A stretch of DNA of 36,249 nucleotides. It comes from a virus. Position numbers and translations under genes: made by a program. This document shows, piece by piece, positions 14,478-29,335 of the stretch (position 1 is the first letter of the stretch; each line of letters opens with the position of its first letter). The stretch spans positions 1 through 36,249 of the IMG/VR virus record IMGVR_UViG_3300050021_000093, one strand, 5' to 3'. A model generated the notes under the pieces. It saw nothing but the letters and a program-made list of their open reading frames with translations, ran no database searches and had not been told where the DNA came from.

Positions 14478-14526
14478 GCCCCAGCACGAAACCGATCAAC
14501 ATGCCCATGAGGATGCCCCCAAACAT
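14239..14526 (-). CDS. Overlapping frame with N-terminal membrane segment
   Basis: ATG 14526 overlaps the terL stop as TAATG and has GGAGGGTGA upstream, a better start signal than that of the acetyltransferase. The first 18 residues are a hydrophobic Gly/Met/Leu-rich segment (MFGGILMGMLIGFVLGRG) followed by a polar stretch. From 14477 onward it lies entirely inside the acetyltransferase in another frame, so only the first part is likely to be meaningful. It may be a short membrane peptide that couples the acetyltransferase to terL. Confidence 0.35.
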   Translation of the reverse strand: MFGGILMGMLIGFVLGRGMGQPKRGGADNRTSSLGFIGHGINTPVEERLPGDFTDAVSVDEGDAGIILQRRLQPPRYPLLGAGGERQDYRHGRFD

Positions 14527-16010
14527 TACACTCTCACCCTCCATCGCTTTAACAACTCTTGTCTGGTCTCTGCGCTCGCGCTCCAATAATCTTCCTGCAA
14601 GTCCTGATCCAGCTCGTCCAATCGCTTGCCGCCCTCTTCCTTCGGTAGGTCGAAGGAGGCCTGATCCCGGATGTAGTGAGCTATTGCTAGAGACATGATC
14701 AGATCGTCGTTCTTGCCGCCCTGAGCCTCGGCCTTCCCTTTCTCGTTGCGAACGAACGTCAACATTTCCTCTAGCGTGGGGATGTCGTTGATCGTCTCTA
14801 TGTGTTCCCGAACCACTTTTACCAGATGGCTGATTGCTGCTGGCCTGGTAAGTTTATCGGTGTGAAAGCCGTAACGATTGCTAAGTTTCCCAGTGAAGGC
14901 GTCTGGTGTCTGTTCCCTGACGTATTGGCGAGGGTAAGACAGACGCTCCAATTCTTTGACAGGGTAAGTGCTGAAGTTCGCCTCAATGCCAACGAGGGCT
15001 TGATTGTAGTGCATCCCCAAACAAAAGATTTGCCTGGAAAACAGGTCCTCGTCAAACTGGTGATGCAGGACAGCCACTTGTGATCCCGTAGTATTATCCA
15101 GCACCTGCGCCGCAAAGTAGTCTGATCCTTCTCCGGCTGTGTCTGCTCCGATGACATACGGTAATCCTTTCCGTGGCTCGCTGTAGAGCCGTATGTAGCC
15201 ATCATCCTCACTCTGCCATTTCTGTTTTTCGGTGAACCAGTCATTGTCCCAGCCGTATATAAACAACCCCTTCTTCGGGATGATTGTCCTCAGTTCTGCT
15301 ATCCTGGCTGTAACGATTGCGGCGGGGAAGATCGTCTTTCCGGTGACTCCCCATTCGCCAAGGCCATAGACGCTGTAGTAATAATCGTCTACGCCCTTGA
15401 AGGATTCAATGAGCCTGGTATATTCGGCGTCGATAAAACGGTTGTCTTTATACGTAGAGTGATGGGCGGTTGTATCTTGACTCTGCTTATCAACCAGAGC
15501 CTTGAGCCAATGGGTAACGGAGACCGGATTGAAGCTTTGAATAATCTGCTTGTAGTGCTTGCTTTGGCCTCGGAGCCGTAGGTCAAGCTGCTTGTGATCT
15601 GTGTCATCTAATTCGCTGGCCTCCTCTTCCCAGACTCCCGTGATGCCGTGAATCGATTTTAATTTCTCGACATCATCGCAGCCGGCAAAGATGATCGTGT
15701 TCCCGTTGGCGCATCTTATTTCCATGTCTGTCTTGTTGACGGTGAAGAAGGCGGATAGATCCCAGGTCGATATGATGTTCAAGATCTCAGCGAAGCATGA
15801 TTGACGGATCGTCTTGGCGACTTTGCGAACAACGAGGAACCGATGACCTTTCTCAGCCAGAGTTCTAACGACGATCTTTTGCGAGGCGAATACACTCTTG
15901 CCACTTCCGGCGCCGCCCCATAAAATCAGGTAGCGGGACTTGTTTGTGTAGAGCGGGTAGAAAACATCGTTGGTAAGCGTCGGTAAGGATGTCAGGTCTA
16001 TTGTCGGCAT
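14526..16010 (-). CDS. terL: Terminase large subunit
   Basis: A 494-residue two-domain packaging motor. The ATPase domain has Walker A WGGAGSGKSV (31-40) and Walker B GVWEEEASEL (125-134). A motor coupling segment IQSFNPVSVTHWL follows near 157. The nuclease domain carries VIGADTAGEGSDY (287-298, metal Asp290) and a late GKLSNRYGF and GGKNDDLIMSLA segment (final Asp cluster). The pattern fits the PBSX/Terminase_3-6 group. It packages DNA into the procapsid through the portal. ATG 16010 follows GAGGTTTT, and the end is TAATG-coupled to the first cassette frame. Confidence 0.9.
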   Translation of the reverse strand: MPTIDLTSLPTLTNDVFYPLYTNKSRYLILWGGAGSGKSVFASQKIVVRTLAEKGHRFLVVRKVAKTIRQSCFAEILNIISTWDLSAFFTVNKTDMEIRCANGNTIIFAGCDDVEKLKSIHGITGVWEEEASELDDTDHKQLDLRLRGQSKHYKQIIQSFNPVSVTHWLKALVDKQSQDTTAHHSTYKDNRFIDAEYTRLIESFKGVDDYYYSVYGLGEWGVTGKTIFPAAIVTARIAELRTIIPKKGLFIYGWDNDWFTEKQKWQSEDDGYIRLYSEPRKGLPYVIGADTAGEGSDYFAAQVLDNTTGSQVAVLHHQFDEDLFSRQIFCLGMHYNQALVGIEANFSTYPVKELERLSYPRQYVREQTPDAFTGKLSNRYGFHTDKLTRPAAISHLVKVVREHIETINDIPTLEEMLTFVRNEKGKAEAQGGKNDDLIMSLAIAHYIRDQASFDLPKEEGGKRLDELDQDLQEDYWSASAETRQELLKRWRVRV

Positions 16011-16088: not shown

Positions 16089-16436
16089 TTACTTCGTTTC
16101 TCTCATATTCTCGGGCAACCTTACGGTGATGGACAGATCGGCGGTGTGGTCATGCTTGTCTGTCCAACCCAATTGCTTGAGCGAGAAGATTGCCATCGAC
16201 GTGTTGCAGTTGTTCTTCAGGGCTAACCGTTCAAGGCCGGCCTCTTTCTTTTGGACACATTTTTTTAATAGAGTGGAGAAATCTGGCTGATCGTATAACC
16301 AATCCCGCAAAATCCCGGTCTGTGAAGCGAACTCAGCGACAATGGGAACCTTCTCCCGGGCAATATAACTCTCGAACTTCAGCAGCAATTCTGCTTTCTG
16401 GGCTGCATATTTGTTCGGCCTGCCTCGCTGCGCCAT
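16089..16436 (-). CDS. terS: Terminase small subunit
   Basis: A 115-residue DNA-recognition subunit. ATG 16436 is chosen over the upstream GTG run because the GGTGGTGGTG lies just before it. The start AQRGRPNKY and the segments IVAEFASQTGILRDWLYD and FSLKQLGWTDKHDH match P22 gp3-like and related small terminases (helix-turn-helix domain, then an oligomerisation part). It selects the packaging start for the large subunit encoded next. It is the first minus-strand late gene and faces the plus-strand pair across a 120-base gap. Confidence 0.75.
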   Translation of the reverse strand: MAQRGRPNKYAAQKAELLLKFESYIAREKVPIVAEFASQTGILRDWLYDQPDFSTLLKKCVQKKEAGLERLALKNNCNTSMAIFSLKQLGWTDKHDHTADLSITVRLPENMRETK

Positions 16437-16504
16437 CGTCACCACCACCAAAATAATTTAATTGTTTGCCCAATAGTCCTATATACAGCCTAAGCGATTA
16501 GATT

Positions 16505-16510
16505 TATACT
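16505..16510 (+). promoter_or_regulatory. Weak candidate -10 element for the plus-strand pair
   Basis: TATACT lies 50 bases before the first plus-strand gene, without a clear -35 box at 16-18 bases. The 108-base gap 16452-16559 holds this element, a second TATATA-like box near 16480 and the hairpin described next. No convincing consensus promoter for the minus-strand terS was seen in it. Confidence 0.3.
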
Positions 16511-16527
16511 GATAGTAGATAGAGGGG

Positions 16528-16559
16528 GCCGGTCAACCCGGCAGAGGAGGCAAAATAAA
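16528..16559 (+). promoter_or_regulatory. Hairpin leader 1 before ribosome site
   Basis: GCCGG (16528-16532) pairs with CCGGC (16538-16542) over a five-base loop, followed at once by CAGAGGAGG and AAAATAAA before the ATG at 16560. The same arrangement recurs before the second plus-strand gene, which makes a shared translational or RNA-protein control plausible. Confidence 0.55.
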
Positions 16560-16973
16560 ATGGCAGTAGTTCTGGAGTTCCCGAATCAGCAACAGAGCAT
16601 GAGCCGCAACGATGTTATCGCCACCATCAAGAACGCATTGCAGAATAGATCAGGCAAGACGTGGAGCGTGACCGGCGGTAAGGGTACTGCTCACGGTTGG
16701 CTAAAGATTGACGCTCCGCCCAAACGCTGCACCTGGCACTTTGAACCACGCCTGAACCTCAATGACGAATACACAGAGTACGAGGACGCCAGCAAACCTT
16801 TTGGCCACATGTCACCGAGCGACCAGGAAGAATTAAAAAACCTGCTCGGGCTAGAAAGACGCGTACACCACCAGGGTATACAAATCCCGTCAGGCTATGA
16901 CTACTACCGGGAATATATTGCCAGGGCTAAAGGACACACGCCGACAACATACGGCACTCCGTACTGGGATTAA
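16560..16973 (+). CDS. Conserved hypothetical protein (SGKTWSVTGG family)
   Basis: A 137-residue protein with ATG 16560 after AGAGGAGG. It shows phrases I recall from an uncharacterised family: DVIATIKNALQNRSGKTWSV, GKGTAHGWLKIDAPP and the ending GTPYWD, with a middle HMSPSDQEELKNLLGLE. The family has no known function to me. It is one of only two plus-strand genes in the window and lies between the early and late modules, a common place for regulatory genes. Confidence 0.65.
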   Translation: MAVVLEFPNQQQSMSRNDVIATIKNALQNRSGKTWSVTGGKGTAHGWLKIDAPPKRCTWHFEPRLNLNDEYTEYEDASKPFGHMSPSDQEELKNLLGLERRVHHQGIQIPSGYDYYREYIARAKGHTPTTYGTPYWD

Positions 16974-16985
16974 CATAATCGGCCA

Positions 16986-17020
16986 GCCGGGAGCCTTATC
17001 CCGGCAGAGAGGGGAATAAA
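16986..17020 (+). promoter_or_regulatory. Hairpin leader 2 before ribosome site
   Basis: GCCGGGA (16986-16992) pairs perfectly with TCCCGGC (16999-17005). It is followed by AGAGAGGGG and AATAAA before the ATG at 17021. The stem and spacing copy leader 1 although the loops differ, so the structure rather than the sequence appears conserved. Confidence 0.55.
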
Positions 17021-17317
17021 ATGCAAGTTGAACAGTGGACAATAATGGGCGAAAATACCCGCTCCCAACTTATTAAAAGCTACGCCGCCAAGTTCCGCGC
17101 TGACCAGGCGCATGATACCAGTGATGCCGGGCTGATGAAAACCTTCGCCAACTGTGTTCTGCCGCCCAAGCCCTTTATGCTCCCGGCCATCCGTGAGGAG
17201 ATTGAAACCTCTGCTGCTGCTGCTACCCTCGGTCGCAAGGGCGGATCGTCCAAGTCTCTCGCCAAACAGGTTGCCTCTCGCACTAACGGCAAACTGGGTG
17301 GCCGGCACAAAAAATAA
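17021..17317 (+). CDS. Small basic hypothetical protein with LGRKGGSSKS tail
   Basis: A 98-residue protein with ATG 17021 after AGAGAGGGG. The C-terminal 30 residues (LGRKGGSSKSLAKQVASRTN followed by GKLGGRHKK) form a basic glycine-rich tail seen in other small phage or bacterial proteins, while the N-terminal two-thirds are not recognised. It is read with the gene before it and ends at a hairpin 20 bases later. A nucleic-acid-binding role is possible. Confidence 0.6.
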   Translation: MQVEQWTIMGENTRSQLIKSYAAKFRADQAHDTSDAGLMKTFANCVLPPKPFMLPAIREEIETSAAAATLGRKGGSSKSLAKQVASRTNGKLGGRHKK

Positions 17318-17327
17318 ATAAATTTCT

Positions 17328-17411
17328 ACAAAAAGATACCCGCTCATCACAAGGCGGGTATTGTCTTTGCGCGGTAATTATTGGCAAACCAGAAAAATGC
17401 ATAAAGATCTC
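17328..17411 (-). ncRNA. Candidate small RNA between promoter and terminator
   Basis: A consensus promoter at 17418-17446 would start a leftward transcript near 17411. About 50 bases on it meets the hairpin 17336-17361 followed by CTTTTTG. The product would be about 80 bases. It does not overlap the coding part of the plus-strand genes but runs antisense to the 3' end of their transcript. The predicted ends come only from sequence. Confidence 0.45.
17336..17361. terminator. Convergent hairpin terminator
   Basis: ATACCCGC (17336-17343) and GCGGGTAT (17354-17361) form a perfect 8-pair stem. On the minus strand it is followed by CTTTTTG, a good terminator. On the plus strand only TTGTCTTT follows, so termination there is weaker. 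It separates plus-strand genes from the leftward early operon. Confidence 0.7.
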
Positions 17412-17417
17412 AAGTTC

Positions 17418-17446
17418 AGTATAAAAAATTTCGGAGTGTTTGTCAA
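17418..17446 (-). promoter_or_regulatory. Consensus sigma-70 promoter, leftward
   Basis: TTGACA (17441-17446) and TATACT (17418-17423) with an exact 17-base spacer. The spacer carries CTCCGAAATT, also found in the promoter-like site at 29093-29121. No protein gene starts directly after it on the minus strand before the terminator. The 150-base gap 17318-17466 holds only this promoter and terminator. Confidence 0.7.
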
Positions 17447-17466: not shown

Positions 17467-17712
17467 TCATTCTATCCGATACCTCCAGTCGTAGTCAGCT
17501 TTTACTTTCTTCCCGCCGTATCTCTTGGACTTCTGGCTCTGTCCTCCAAAGCTCGTGATGTGGTAATGCATCATGTCGAGAGTCTTCCGCCAGCGCGCCG
17601 TAACTCTTAGATCCTCAGGGTAGTGAGTGTACAGTCCGCAACCGCATTGCCACACCTTTCCATCCGGTCCCATCTCACCACATGCCGGGCAGATCACCGG
17701 GAACATTGACAT
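17467..17712 (-). CDS. Zinc-ribbon hypothetical protein
   Basis: ATG 17712 follows GAGGAAAGAGGC, giving 81 residues; a longer start at 17748 lies deep in the neighbour. A Cys-x2-Cys (CPACG, near residue 8) and CGCG (near residue 23) form a likely zinc ribbon. The C-terminal half is basic and aromatic (SKRYGGKKVKADYDWRYRI). It is the last gene of the early operon. No family is recognised. Confidence 0.55.
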   Translation of the reverse strand: MSMFPVICPACGEMGPDGKVWQCGCGLYTHYPEDLRVTARWRKTLDMMHYHITSFGGQSQKSKRYGGKKVKADYDWRYRIE

Positions 17713-17972
17713 GCCTCTTTCCTCAACCTGTTGATCTTCGCAAGCCATCGCAGCGGATCAGGTGTGTAGAACTTCAACGTCTGCTCGATTTGCTTGGCCC
17801 GCGCCGTGTCCATCTTGGCGAAACATTTGCCATAGGTCGCGTAGAGATGTCTGGGGTCGGTGTAGACCCGGCAGGTACTCACTCCATCGCGGCAACACCC
17901 ATGGCACATCTCGTAGATCGTCTCCTGAACGAAAGCCCTGTCATCTCTTTTGTCCTGCACTGACTGTGGCAT
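17694..17972 (-). CDS. Small Cys-containing hypothetical protein
   Basis: A 92-residue protein with ATG 17972 after GAGAGGGTATAAA. It has CHGCC and further Cys (CRVY, GKCF, CQC) and a helical second half (TARAKQIEQTLKFY). It overlaps the next gene by 19 bases and lies beside VRR-NUC. No family is recognised; a redox or metal-binding role cannot be decided. Confidence 0.55.
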   Translation of the reverse strand: MPQSVQDKRDDRAFVQETIYEMCHGCCRDGVSTCRVYTDPRHLYATYGKCFAKMDTARAKQIEQTLKFYTPDPLRWLAKINRLRKEACQCSR

Positions 17973-23408: not shown

Positions 23409-23755
23409 TTCTCCACCTCTACCTCAACTTCTCGCCGGCCGAAACTTATGGCCTCATGCCTGGATGCGACGAACAGGTCCAACCTGTTCCCCTGGATCGC
23501 CCCGCCGGTATCCTCTGCCACGTACCTGTGGCCGTCTACCACGACGATGGAACCTAGCGGGATGATACTCTTGTCCACTGCGACCGTCCGTCCAACCTGG
23601 GGCATCCTGCCGCTTCTGGTGGGGTTCCCCGTGGCGACGTACGCGGTGGCCAGGAATGTTTGCGCCGTGCTCATTTTGCCGGCGCCGGGCAGATGATCGA
23701 CGGCGAGCGGATGTGGGTAGATCAGGAGCAGGAGGGCCAGGATCAGGGCGCGCAT
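23405..23755 (-). CDS. Exported 3D-domain cell-wall protein
   Basis: ATG 23755 overlaps the repeat-protein stop as TAATG, giving 116 residues; longer frames are rejected. A signal-peptide-like segment MRALILALLLLIYPHPLA comes first. The 3D domain (MltA/YabE/Rpf2-like) follows: ATAYVATGNPTRSGRMPQVG, then VAVDKSIIPLGSIVVVDG and DTGGAIQGNRLDLFV, with the conserved Asp residues (VAVD, AEDTGG, RLDLFV). Such domains act on peptidoglycan in Bacillota. It lies in the early operon, not among lysis genes. Confidence 0.78.
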   Translation of the reverse strand: MRALILALLLLIYPHPLAVDHLPGAGKMSTAQTFLATAYVATGNPTRSGRMPQVGRTVAVDKSIIPLGSIVVVDGHRYVAEDTGGAIQGNRLDLFVASRHEAISFGRREVEVEVEK

Positions 23756-25062
23756 TAAGCAACGCCCTCCGGCTTCCACCGCTTGGCCAGGATGCGGCCG
23801 TACAATCCCCACTCCTCGGCCGGCACCTCCCGCAGTACCGTCAGTTCCGGCGTCCTCACTTTGCCGTCGCACTCGCTGGGCAGCACGATGGCGCTGATGG
23901 GCACGGCGATTTCGATAACCCTGAACGGCTTCCCGTCAGTGGCGCTTCTGCCGAAATCTAGCGCCCAGGCGAGATGTGAGACATGAAGACCTACGGAGCA
24001 GTTTCTGCTCACATCCGGGTCGCAGTCCTGGCGGACGGTCTCACCGATCACGTACTGCACCCGCGGGCCTGAATGGAAGGAGCAGAGATCGGGGCGTACA
24101 GACTTGTACAGCGTGGCGATGCCGTCTTTGTGTGCGATGCCATGCAGGTCCAGGTATTCCTCGATGCTCTGCGGGTATCCGTTGACGATCCGGGCGTTGC
24201 CGGCGATGGTAAGCTTGGCAGTATCCGAAAATTTGACGATCTGAACATTGGCTTGGGCATCAACGCTGCTGTTCTCCCGGGCCACAACGCTGCTGTTCTC
24301 CCTGGCCACAACGCTGCTGTGCTCCCTGGCCTCAACGCTGCTGTTCTCCCAGGCCTCAACGCTGCTGTTCCCCCTGGCCACAACGCTGCTGTGCTCCCAG
24401 GCCACAACGCTGCTGTGCTCCCTGGCCTCAACGCTGCTGTGCTCCCTGGCCTCAACGCTGCTGTTCTCCCAGGCCACAACGCTGCTGTTCCCCCAGGCCA
24501 CAACGCTGCTGTGCTCCCTGGCCTCAACGCTGCTGTTCTCCCAGGCCACAACGCTGCTGTTCACCCAGGCCACAACGCTGCTGTTCCCCCTGGCCTCAAC
24601 GCTGCTGTTCCCCCAGGCCACAACGCTGCTGTTCTCCCAGGCCTCAACGCTGCTGTTCTCCCAGGCCTCAACGCTGCTGTTCCCCCTGGCCACAACGCTG
24701 CTGTTCTCCCAGGCCACAACGCTGCTGTGCTCCCAGGCCTCAACGCTGCTGTGCTCCCTGGCCTCAACGCTGCTGTTCTCCCAGGCCACAACGCTGCTGT
24801 TCCCCCAGGCCACAACGCTGCTGTTCCCCCAGGCCACAACGCTGCTGTTCTCCCAGGCCTCAACGCTGCTGTTCTCCCAGGCCTCAACGCTGCTGTTCCC
24901 CCTGGCCACAACGCTGCTGTGCTCCCTGGCCTCAACGCGAAATCCCTTTCGCTGGGCGATCACGATCCGGGACTCCGGGGATGATTTGAGATAGATCCAA
25001 TCCTGCGAATCTGCCGGGATACGGTCCCAGTCTTCTTGACAAGTAACAATGATGTCAGACAT
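23755..25062 (-). CDS. Tandem 8-residue repeat protein with DUF7666-like C-terminus
   Basis: A 435-residue protein, ATG 25062 after GAGAGGAGC. Residues 1-42 form a short domain with DWIYLKSSPESRIVI. Residues 43-266 are 28 tandem copies of the 8-residue unit V-V/E-A-W/R-E/G-N/H-S-S, plus one degenerate copy. A beta-helix-like stack is likely for repeats with alternating Val and Ser. The C-terminal 130 residues (from YKSVRPDLCSFHSGP through EVPAEEWGLYG) resemble DUF7666. The repeats may form a rigid rod presenting the end domain. Cell location is unknown; no signal peptide is seen. Confidence 0.7.
   Translation of the reverse strand: MSDIIVTCQEDWDRIPADSQDWIYLKSSPESRIVIAQRKGFRVEAREHSSVVARGNSSVEAWENSSVEAWENSSVVAWGNSSVVAWGNSSVVAWENSSVEAREHSSVEAWEHSSVVAWENSSVVARGNSSVEAWENSSVEAWENSSVVAWGNSSVEARGNSSVVAWVNSSVVAWENSSVEAREHSSVVAWGNSSVVAWENSSVEAREHSSVEAREHSSVVAWEHSSVVARGNSSVEAWENSSVEAREHSSVVARENSSVVARENSSVDAQANVQIVKFSDTAKLTIAGNARIVNGYPQSIEEYLDLHGIAHKDGIATLYKSVRPDLCSFHSGPRVQYVIGETVRQDCDPDVSRNCSVGLHVSHLAWALDFGRSATDGKPFRVIEIAVPISAIVLPSECDGKVRTPELTVLREVPAEEWGLYGRILAKRWKPEGVA
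24265..24936 (-). repeat. 28 tandem 24-base repeats with four two-state positions
   Basis: 28 complete units of 24 bases, one degenerate unit beyond (24241-24264). Only four codons vary in almost all units: GTG/GAG, TGG/AGG, GAG/GGG and AAC/CAC; one unit has GTG in place of GAG or GGG. No indel disturbs the frame. The period is a multiple of three and lacks stops in most frames, so long shadow frames occur on both strands. Confidence 0.95.
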
Positions 25063-27870: not shown

Positions 27871-28474
27871 ACTTAACGCCCCCTTCCATTTCGTTGATTG
27901 CCTTGTCTAACGTTTCATGTAACTTCGCTAATTCTTCGTGCGGCAACGCCACCCGATCATAGGGGTCAAGCTCAAAAAACACTCCGCCTTCGTCGCCATA
28001 GCTGCCTTGAGTGCATATCTCGCACTCGCCTTTGTCCTCAAGAAACGTCAGCAAGTTCGTTGCGGCCTCGACCAGGCAGGGAACCTTTTTATCGACGGTC
28101 TCCTGGTCAACATGGATCAGTTCAAGCGCTTGCAGCAGTCCCCGTTCCCGCTCCATGCGGGTGGCCAAACTGTTGCCCAGTACGTTGCATTCGGCTTCAA
28201 GTTCCTTGATCCGGGCATCCTTGGCAGAGATCTCGTTTTCTGCTCTCTTCTGAAGAGCAATGAAAGCCGTATTGAGTCTCAAGGGACCGCCCTCACACTC
28301 ATAACCACACCAGACCAGTTGATCTACGATTTCTTGCAGAGTCTTATATTCGGGATACTCTCTCGGTTCAAAGTTAGTACCGCCGTTCTCGTCAGGGTGA
28401 CAAGGGAGACAGGGTTCTGCACCGAGAAAAACCGAAGCGTGGACGCAGATATGGCAATCACAGCTTTTATTCAT
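27863..28474 (-). CDS. Cys-rich coiled-coil hypothetical protein
   Basis: ATG 28474 has GGGAGG eight bases upstream, giving 203 residues; the longer start to 28498 is not favoured. The N-terminal CDCHICVHASVFLGAEPCLPC (residues 5-25) is Cys-rich and typical of some phage proteins. A coiled coil follows (about 80-115), then a helical part with KVPCLVEAATNLLTFLEDKG. Early-operon gene of unknown role. Confidence 0.55.
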   Translation of the reverse strand: MNKSCDCHICVHASVFLGAEPCLPCHPDENGGTNFEPREYPEYKTLQEIVDQLVWCGYECEGGPLRLNTAFIALQKRAENEISAKDARIKELEAECNVLGNSLATRMERERGLLQALELIHVDQETVDKKVPCLVEAATNLLTFLEDKGECEICTQGSYGDEGGVFFELDPYDRVALPHEELAKLHETLDKAINEMEGGVKYG

Positions 28475-28658
28475 GGTCGCAACCTCCCCTTCGCACACAC
28501 TGATCGTAGTAAGTCACGCTGCCGTATTCCTGCCCTGCCGGGTAATCCACTACGTCCTGGAGATCCGGGCACTCACGGCATTTCAACGGCGGCTCCTGGT
28601 TCTCCAGCGCCCGATCAACCGCATCCAGCGCCGCGCACATCAGTTTGAACTCGCTCAT
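28467..28658 (-). CDS. Small hypothetical protein
   Basis: A 63-residue protein with AGGAGGGG before ATG 28658, ATGA-coupled to the small membrane gene upstream. Cys pair CREC near residue 27 and two more near the C-terminus suggest metal binding. The start SEFKLMCAALDAVDRALEN is helical. No family is recognised. Confidence 0.5.
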   Translation of the reverse strand: MSEFKLMCAALDAVDRALENQEPPLKCRECPDLQDVVDYPAGQEYGSVTYYDQCVRRGGCDHE

Positions 28659-28783
28659 TTCTTTTTTCCCCTCCTCATTATGTCTACCTCGTCATCCGGC
28701 AGGAGCAGCGGACCTAGCATGATGGCTAGAACGATGGCACCGCAAAATCCGATTCCAAAAAGGTTTAGATGCGTCCAAACCAT
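28655..28783 (-). CDS. Small single-segment membrane protein
   Basis: A 42-residue frame with ATG 28783 (TGATG overlap with the regulator) and AAGGAGGTG five bases upstream, a strong start signal. It has one hydrophobic segment (about residues 9-27: FGIGFCGAIVLAIMLGPLL) and a basic C-terminal end MRRGKKK. Second gene of the early operon. Such early membrane peptides can interfere with host functions; this is not shown here. Confidence 0.55.
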   Translation of the reverse strand: MVWTHLNLFGIGFCGAIVLAIMLGPLLLPDDEVDIMRRGKKK

Positions 28784-28935
28784 CAAACCACCTCCTTGCG
28801 CTTTTCCTTCGCCACGTACTCGACGATCAGTCTTCGAGTCGCCGCCTCAATACTCTCCTTCTTCTTTGCGCAAACTATTTTGAAGCGGGTGTGATCCTCT
28901 GCATCTAAAAACGTCTGGACTGAAATCATTTTCAT
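28783..28935 (-). CDS. Ribbon-helix-helix-like small regulator
   Basis: A 50-residue frame with GGAGG eight bases before ATG 28935, first gene of the early operon. The pattern of a short N-terminal strand (ISVQTFLDAEDHTRFK) followed by two helices (IVCAKKKESIEAATRR, then LIVEYVAKEK) fits the Arc/CopG/ParD ribbon-helix-helix fold. It lies directly behind the promoter at 28959-28986, which has an inverted repeat in its spacer, so it could control its own operon. The fold is inferred from pattern. Confidence 0.55.
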   Translation of the reverse strand: MKMISVQTFLDAEDHTRFKIVCAKKKESIEAATRRLIVEYVAKEKRKEVV

Positions 28936-28958
28936 TCAACTCGCCTCCTTCTATTGCC

Positions 28959-28986
28959 ATGATACCATAGAGTATATGGATGTCAA
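28959..28986 (-). promoter_or_regulatory. Early-operon promoter with spacer inverted repeat
   Basis: TTGACA (28981-28986) and TATCAT (28959-28964) with a 16-base spacer. CCATA (28965-28969) and TATGG (28975-28979) form an inverted repeat inside the spacer, an operator-like site. The first gene starts about 24 bases downstream. Between 28936 and 29030 there is otherwise AT-rich sequence without a gene. Confidence 0.7.
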
Positions 28987-29030
28987 GGGGGTAAATGAAA
29001 ATATATTTTTAATTATTTTTAAGCGCGAAT

Positions 29031-29062
29031 AAAAAGACCCGGGTGGTCAGCCCGGGCCTTTT
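29031..29062. terminator. Terminator closing the lysis-side block
   Basis: AAAAG (29032-29036) plus CCCGGG pairs with CCCGGG plus CTTTT (29058-29062) with one mismatch, around a TGGTCAG loop. The minus strand continues with TCTTTTTATT, a strong terminator for the block 29096-36249; the plus strand has a weaker TTTTC. Confidence 0.75.
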
Positions 29063-29092
29063 CGAGGAGGGGAGGAAAACTTAGTTAAGTTT

Positions 29093-29121
29093 AGTTTACG
29101 ACAATTTCGGAGAATTGTCAA
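29093..29121 (-). promoter_or_regulatory. Promoter-like site overlapping the holin-like gene end
   Basis: TTGACA (29116-29121) and TAAACT (29093-29098) with a 17-base spacer. GACAATT (29100-29106) and AATTGTC (29113-29119) form a perfect inverted repeat across it. It shares CTCCGAAATT with the promoter at 17418-17446. The transcript would meet the terminator 29031-29062 within 50 bases. Confidence 0.5.
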
Positions 29122-29335
29122 CTACCGGAGTAGCGAGAACTTGCTTGACCAGGCTTGTTGTCGTTGCAGATGGTATTTGTTTGCCGGTCAAGAGTAATAC
29201 GAAACTGCCGAGCAGGTCGAGCACCGTGCCGATGTTGGTCGTGTTCCCTGCATAGAGCATCACGGCGGCGAGCACGACGAAGATCAGGACGATGGCCGCC
29301 AAAACAGTGTCAAGCGCATCGAAGTCCCAGGTCAT
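29096..29335 (-). CDS. Small membrane protein, possible holin
   Basis: A 79-residue protein with GGAGGTTTTACT before ATG 29335. Two hydrophobic segments (about residues 10-28: TVLAAIVLIFVVLAAVML; and 38-50: VLDLLGSFVLLLTG) and a short polar tail fit the size and layout of class II holins. It lies at the end of the block containing the amidase. No family signature is visible, so holin is a position-based guess. Confidence 0.55.
   Translation of the reverse strand: MTWDFDALDTVLAAIVLIFVVLAAVMLYAGNTTNIGTVLDLLGSFVLLLTGKQIPSATTTSLVKQVLATPVVDNSPKLS

Follow-up and report, generated by a model that had tools for sequence, protein, structure and literature searches.

A putative antitermination gate between a near-consensus promoter and the packaging genes of a phage

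Introduction

Processive antiterminators have arisen again and again with no sequence similarity to one another, which makes them difficult to detect from the protein alone. Two promoters that have spacer bases in common and both run into terminators form a signature at the DNA level from which a new antiterminator might be recognised.

The closest described systems show different parts of such an arrangement. In phage 21 the Q binding element lies between the -35 and -10 elements, and Q takes RNA polymerase (RNAP) through tR' (PMC6606751). AlpA has two targets, which carry a common spacer element and terminators before their first genes; it was by these shared bases and the downstream terminators that the targets came to be identified, and AlpA ignores the sequence of the terminator (PMC7969949). 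P7 of phage Xp10 acts at terminators preceding late genes (PMC6624301), and IsrK of Gifsy-1 is a terminated phage RNA with a role of its own (PMC4825925).

Here we analyse a virus record of 36,249 bases (the window, taken over its full length), in which a promoter, a short leader and an intrinsic terminator stand ahead of the terminase genes. We favour the reading that this locus is a variant of the late gate layout known from lambdoid phages, with a putative factor for which no Q-family protein is at hand in the window.

Results

Nearly all genes of the window are oriented leftward. In that direction a large possible tail gene, an amidase gene, a putative holin gene (our reading of a short hydrophobic ORF), a terminator and the early promoter (28986) are followed by a small Arc-like gene, by Gam, Erf, DnaD/DnaC-like and methylase genes and a VRR-NUC nuclease gene, and then by two small genes for proteins of 92 and 93 aa, the promoter P_late, terS, terL, the portal gene and the head genes (Table 1). 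Because of this gene order, P_late stands at the border between the early/replication operon and the late operon, and the next genes on its strand are terS and terL. The region has no DNA match in named phages, and a search of bacterial genomes returned a single weak relative of terL. Elsewhere in the window, a tandem repeat with a 24-base period (24256-24938, minus strand) lies within a large ORF (23755-25062), and the relatives' contigs break there.

Table 1. Positions of the features discussed in the text, in window coordinates
Feature	Position	Strand	Description and basis
terL, terminase large subunit	14526..16010	-	PHROG terminase large subunit, E 8e-67
terS, terminase small subunit, divergent allele	16089..16436	-	weak GP3_package match; precedes terL; first late gene downstream of P_late
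Possible cassette promoter	16482..16510	+	TATACA-17-TATACT; promoter match, 9/12
Cassette gene 1, 137 aa	16560..16973	+	function not assigned; absent from six relatives
Cassette gene 2, 98 aa	17021..17317	+	function not assigned; absent from relatives at this site
Leader terminator	17330..17361	-	hairpin 17361-17336 + CTTTTT; not homologous to the relatives' leader terminator
Predicted short leader RNA, about 82 nt	17330..17411	-	start inferred about 7 nt past -10; end = T-run
Left breakpoint of replaced block	17371..17372		blastn; homology to relatives stops at 17372, inside leader
P_late, TTGACA-17-TATACT	17418..17446	-	11/12 match; -35 17446-17441, -10 17423-17418, spacer 17 bases; same DNA in six relatives
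Shared spacer element CTCCGAAATT (about -25 to -16)	17427..17436	-	also in P2 spacer
93-aa Zn-ribbon-like protein (CPxCG...CGCG)	17467..17748	-	directly upstream of P_late; 95% identical in six relatives
P_early, TTGACA-16-TATCAT	28959..28986	-	11/12; downstream of P2 terminator, before early genes
P2 leader, about 56 nt	29031..29086	-	strong intrinsic terminator at end (hairpin 29058-29036, T-run 29035-29031)
P2, TTGACA-17-TAAACT	29093..29121	-	CTCCGAAATT in spacer (29112-29103); alignment to P_late; identical in G001

P_late, which a first-pass annotation of this DNA had already read as a consensus promoter, is present as claimed, and only two sites matching at 11/12 positions or better occur on the two strands of the window, P_late and the one at 28986 (minus strand). 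A single spacer base in one relative (L009) is the only difference from P_late noted among the six. The spacer element is found twice in the window and twice in the most complete relative (G001, 42,880 bp), each time inside a promoter spacer, at an expectation of 0.06 copies per window. About ten independent promoters with this spacer type were found in unrelated viral contigs; as this is near a rough chance expectation and none of them has the same context, we left them out as evidence. In one unrelated viral contig (L115, 1493-2529), three small genes each have their own promoter with a TTGACAGACTCCGAAATT-type spacer or a variant of it, and the three promoters are nearly identical. Among the first transcribed bases of P_late no clear -10-like pause element is seen, the best candidates by eye matching at 3/6 positions (GATCTT and TAAGTT, near +3 to +9).

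Downstream of P_late, the hairpin ATACCCGC...GCGGGTAT, with 8 pairs and followed by CTTTTTG (17335-17329), begins 57 bases past the -10 element, and there is no ORF between promoter and hairpin; the earlier description of the site (an 8-pair hairpin within about 60 bases, with no gene in between) was accurate in both respects. The predicted leader RNA would be about 82 nt long here (17411 to about 17330) and about 60 nt long in the relatives. By a d'Aubenton-Carafa-type score the hairpin of the window is a middling terminator, because of the C between stem and T-run. The leader RNA folds slightly better than its shuffles (z = -1.45), and we therefore ascribe its stability to the terminator hairpin. 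An Rfam covariance search with the leader RNA gave no match at gathering level, and membership in an Rfam small-RNA or leader family was rejected, the matches being sub-threshold and of the kind expected by chance.

Six IMG/VR contigs are close relatives, with a 93-aa protein 95% identical and a terL 97% identical to those of the window; searches for wider relatives with the 92-, 93- and 137-aa proteins returned the same six contigs or none. In all six, the plus-strand genes are absent at this site, and promoter and leader are kept. As the relatives are so close (about 96% identical to the window), conservation of the leader by itself carries little weight. In the relatives P_late lies directly before terS, and the leader has its own hairpin and T-run (TACCGTC...GGCGGTA-TTTTT; score +6 on the same type of scale, a clear terminator), with 16 nt between its end and the start codon of terS. 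Since 16 nt leave no room for another promoter, P_late appears as the obvious promoter of terS in the relatives, and since the terminator lies between the two, terS transcripts from P_late must cross it.

Past the breakpoint the relatives continue with ACCGTCCATTGAGGCGGTATTTTTG, which is followed by terS. A block of about 16160-17371, made up of the plus-strand cassette and the divergent terS, has replaced the ancestral sequence including its terminator: the ancestral hairpin is destroyed in this phage, its first arm ACCG alone remaining, and the other hairpin came with the block, so that the leader RNAs of this phage and of the relatives differ in their 3' halves. The terS gene can be aligned to those of the relatives near its start and end only; its divergence between flanks that are 95-97% identical (terL and the 93-aa gene) delimits a recombination block. 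No minus-strand promoter of at least 9/12 is listed between the cassette and terS. The 137-aa cassette protein had no match in a family search, and the 98-aa protein has partial homologues elsewhere in L002-L006. Ahead of each cassette gene stands a CCGG..CCCGGCAGAGG hairpin with a Shine-Dalgarno-like stretch behind it (16525-16560 and 16985-17020, plus strand), and the same hairpin leader occurs on the minus strand of L017 near 662 and 237, before oppositely oriented genes beside terS; given this second occurrence next to terS, the leader may be a marker of an exchangeable small-gene cassette family.

The second copy of the spacer element lies in P2, whose terminator is reached within 60 nt, with P_early directly next. 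The similarity of P_late and P2 takes in the flanks as well as the spacer: their alignment reaches from -40 to the start site, about 40 columns in all, and 0.06% of null pairs of resampled sequences score as high (fraction 0.0006). In only 20 of 200,000 pairs of shuffled spacers was there a match as good as the 10 spacer bases that the two have in common. The P2 terminator is clear (score +23, dG -14.7), and the P2 leader folds with z = -2.84. In G001 the three best promoters in coding direction are again P_late, P_early and P2, and a terminator scan of that genome gave four clear coding-strand terminators: one in each of the P_late and P2 leaders, one that closes the lysis genes just ahead of P2, and a fourth. 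There, P2 is flanked by two terminators with no gene between them, so that the P2 terminator is not needed for ending the lysis operon.

P2 also contains a perfect dyad (GACAATT-CTCCGA-AATTGTC), which is missing in its full form at P_late, and the first early gene (28783-28935) encodes a ribbon-helix-helix/Arc-like protein; for these two reasons the shared bases could be a repressor site. The P2 RNA includes a single-stranded C-rich UUUUCCUCCCCUCCUC stretch, and because this stretch could pair with Shine-Dalgarno sequences (for instance over 10 nt at 28676), a small-RNA role for P2 is conceivable. Ahead of the P2 terminator hairpin lies a GTTTTCCTCC(C)CTC stretch (29063-29086, minus strand), and ahead of the lysis-operon terminator of G001 a similar GTTTTCCTCCTCTT stretch (near 38985-39010), either of which could pair with Shine-Dalgarno sequences. 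From 28472 to 29122 the window and G001 are 99.85% identical over 651 bp; the identity starts exactly at the -35 element of P2, and the adjoining holin-like genes are unrelated.

Searches of Pfam, PHROGs, NCBIfam and PDB with the 93-aa protein gave nothing informative, and a structure prediction was equally uninformative as to its identity; by position alone it is a candidate late regulator. The Q families PF06530 and PF03589 have no match at E<=1 in the window or in G001, and the ORF scans gave no match to an antiterminator. Two distant relatives (L018 and L034) have a homologue of a RinA/sigma-like regulator directly upstream of terS; the 93-aa protein, directly upstream of P_late, shows no match of that kind. 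A terminator before terS is common in distant terL relatives, usually directly behind the preceding gene. Over 41 terminators of terL relatives, promoter scores were alike upstream, downstream and in shuffled sequence, and a promoter before the terminator was rejected as a general trait of terL relatives. With promoters no stronger upstream of those terminators, the promoter-terminator arrangement is a feature of this phage group and not of the whole terL family.

Discussion

We propose, with a probability of roughly 0.55, that P_late is a late promoter controlled by antitermination, that its short RNA is the terminated leader, and that an inferred phage factor acts as antiterminator. P_late would serve the late (packaging and head) operon as its sigma-70-type promoter; when the phage factor is absent, RNAP would halt at the intrinsic terminator 60-80 nt downstream and release a short leader RNA. 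The antiterminator would be loaded at the promoter via the spacer element; the modified polymerase would then run past the leader terminator, and in this phage also past some 900 bp of convergent genes, into terS, terL and the remaining late genes. P2 would be a second copy of this promoter-terminator module, placed before the early operon, and the factor would work there too. The possibility raised by the first-pass annotation that the terminator is an antitermination point for the late genes thus gains support from comparison of the sequences, namely from the 16-nt gap before terS in the relatives and from P2 with its spacer element and leader terminator.

The insertion in this phage amounts to a natural test of the proposal: ahead of its late genes the phage seems to tolerate a terminator of unrelated sequence and two genes in opposite orientation, as would be expected if the polymerase were blind to terminators, and independence from the sequence of the terminator would explain why they could be inserted at all. 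In a more specific version, which we regard as doubtful, a single antiterminator of an unrecognised kind, perhaps the 93-aa Zn-ribbon protein, would switch both the late and the early module through the spacer element and be processive enough to tolerate the insertion of a terminator and two convergent genes into the leader.

The short RNA had also been proposed to act in antisense on the plus-strand transcript. The plus-strand operon does end at the same hairpin, and the 3' ends of the two transcripts overlap; this overlap, however, hardly extends beyond the self-complementary terminator hairpin, and the six relatives keep promoter and leader without the plus-strand genes. We therefore rejected antisense regulation of these genes, to which we give almost no credence, and the short RNA is probably a by-product of a late-gene gate. 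Equally hard to credit is a chance promoter match without transcription: dinucleotide shuffles hold 0.28 sites of 11/12 per window and at least one in 23% of cases, but P_late is placed exactly before the late operon, is kept in six relatives and has spacer bases in common with P2. That the P_late and P2 RNAs are functional small RNAs acting in trans, with promoters co-regulated through the spacer element, strikes us as improbable. IsrK is a precedent for such a role (PMC4825925), the anatomy of promoter, short RNA and terminator is present twice, and the P2 RNA has its C-rich stretch and a fold better than its shuffles; yet the 3' half of the P_late RNA is not alike in this phage and its relatives, its fold is not notable beyond the terminator (z -1.45 and -0.71), it belongs to no Rfam family, and late transcription in the relatives must still cross the terminator.

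A further possibility, unlikely in our view but deserving more weight than the other rivals of the antitermination reading, is that a leaky terminator mainly ends the early operon and P_late drives the late genes by partial readthrough. There would then be no dedicated antiterminator, and the shared spacer bases would form an operator at which some regulator, for instance the Arc-like protein, binds. The frequent terminators right behind the gene upstream of terS in distant terL relatives are consistent with this, as are the Arc-like first early gene and the dyad at P2, which is perfect as for a repressor operator. Leakiness is difficult to reconcile with the good terminator scores in the relatives and at P2, however, and the lysis genes of G001 are already ended by a separate terminator ahead of P2; an operator, in turn, does not fit the lack of the full dyad at P_late.

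Under the proposed antitermination control, the locus shares some features with each of several known systems. As with IsrK of Gifsy-1, one phage promoter would give both a terminated short RNA and a readthrough mRNA; IsrK differs in being trans-acting and in having an antiterminator gene upstream, whereas the P_late RNA has no supported trans target. The RinA regulators of Gram-positive phages offer a parallel in genomic position, the order being VRR-NUC gene, regulator, terS and terL: Thermoanaerobacterium phage THSA-485A has VRR-NUC, two small genes, RinA, a small gene, terS and terL. The same phage also has a TTTACA-17-TATCAT promoter together with a hairpin past rinA, but here the likeness is weak, as three bases separate the stem of the hairpin from the T-run close by. 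The 93-aa protein is, however, not RinA-like by sequence. Xp10 P7 resembles the proposed factor as a phage protein that lets host RNAP through terminators ahead of late genes; no P7 homologue was detected here, and we know of no use of a promoter-spacer site by P7.

The AlpA promoters of Pseudomonas aeruginosa, alpB and PA0807, are alike in that there are two per genome, with a common spacer element and intrinsic terminators before the first gene, although no AlpA relative was identified here and the target here is a phage late operon. Compared with pR'-tR' of lambda and phage 21, we found no Q homologue and recognised no clear pause element, the shared element lacks the direct-repeat form of the element in phage 21, and a second module lies before the early operon. 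The likeness to lambda and 21 nevertheless extends to the promoter before the late operon, the short untranslated leader, the intrinsic terminator at its end, the candidate protein site between -35 and -10, and the small gene directly upstream, in the position of Q.
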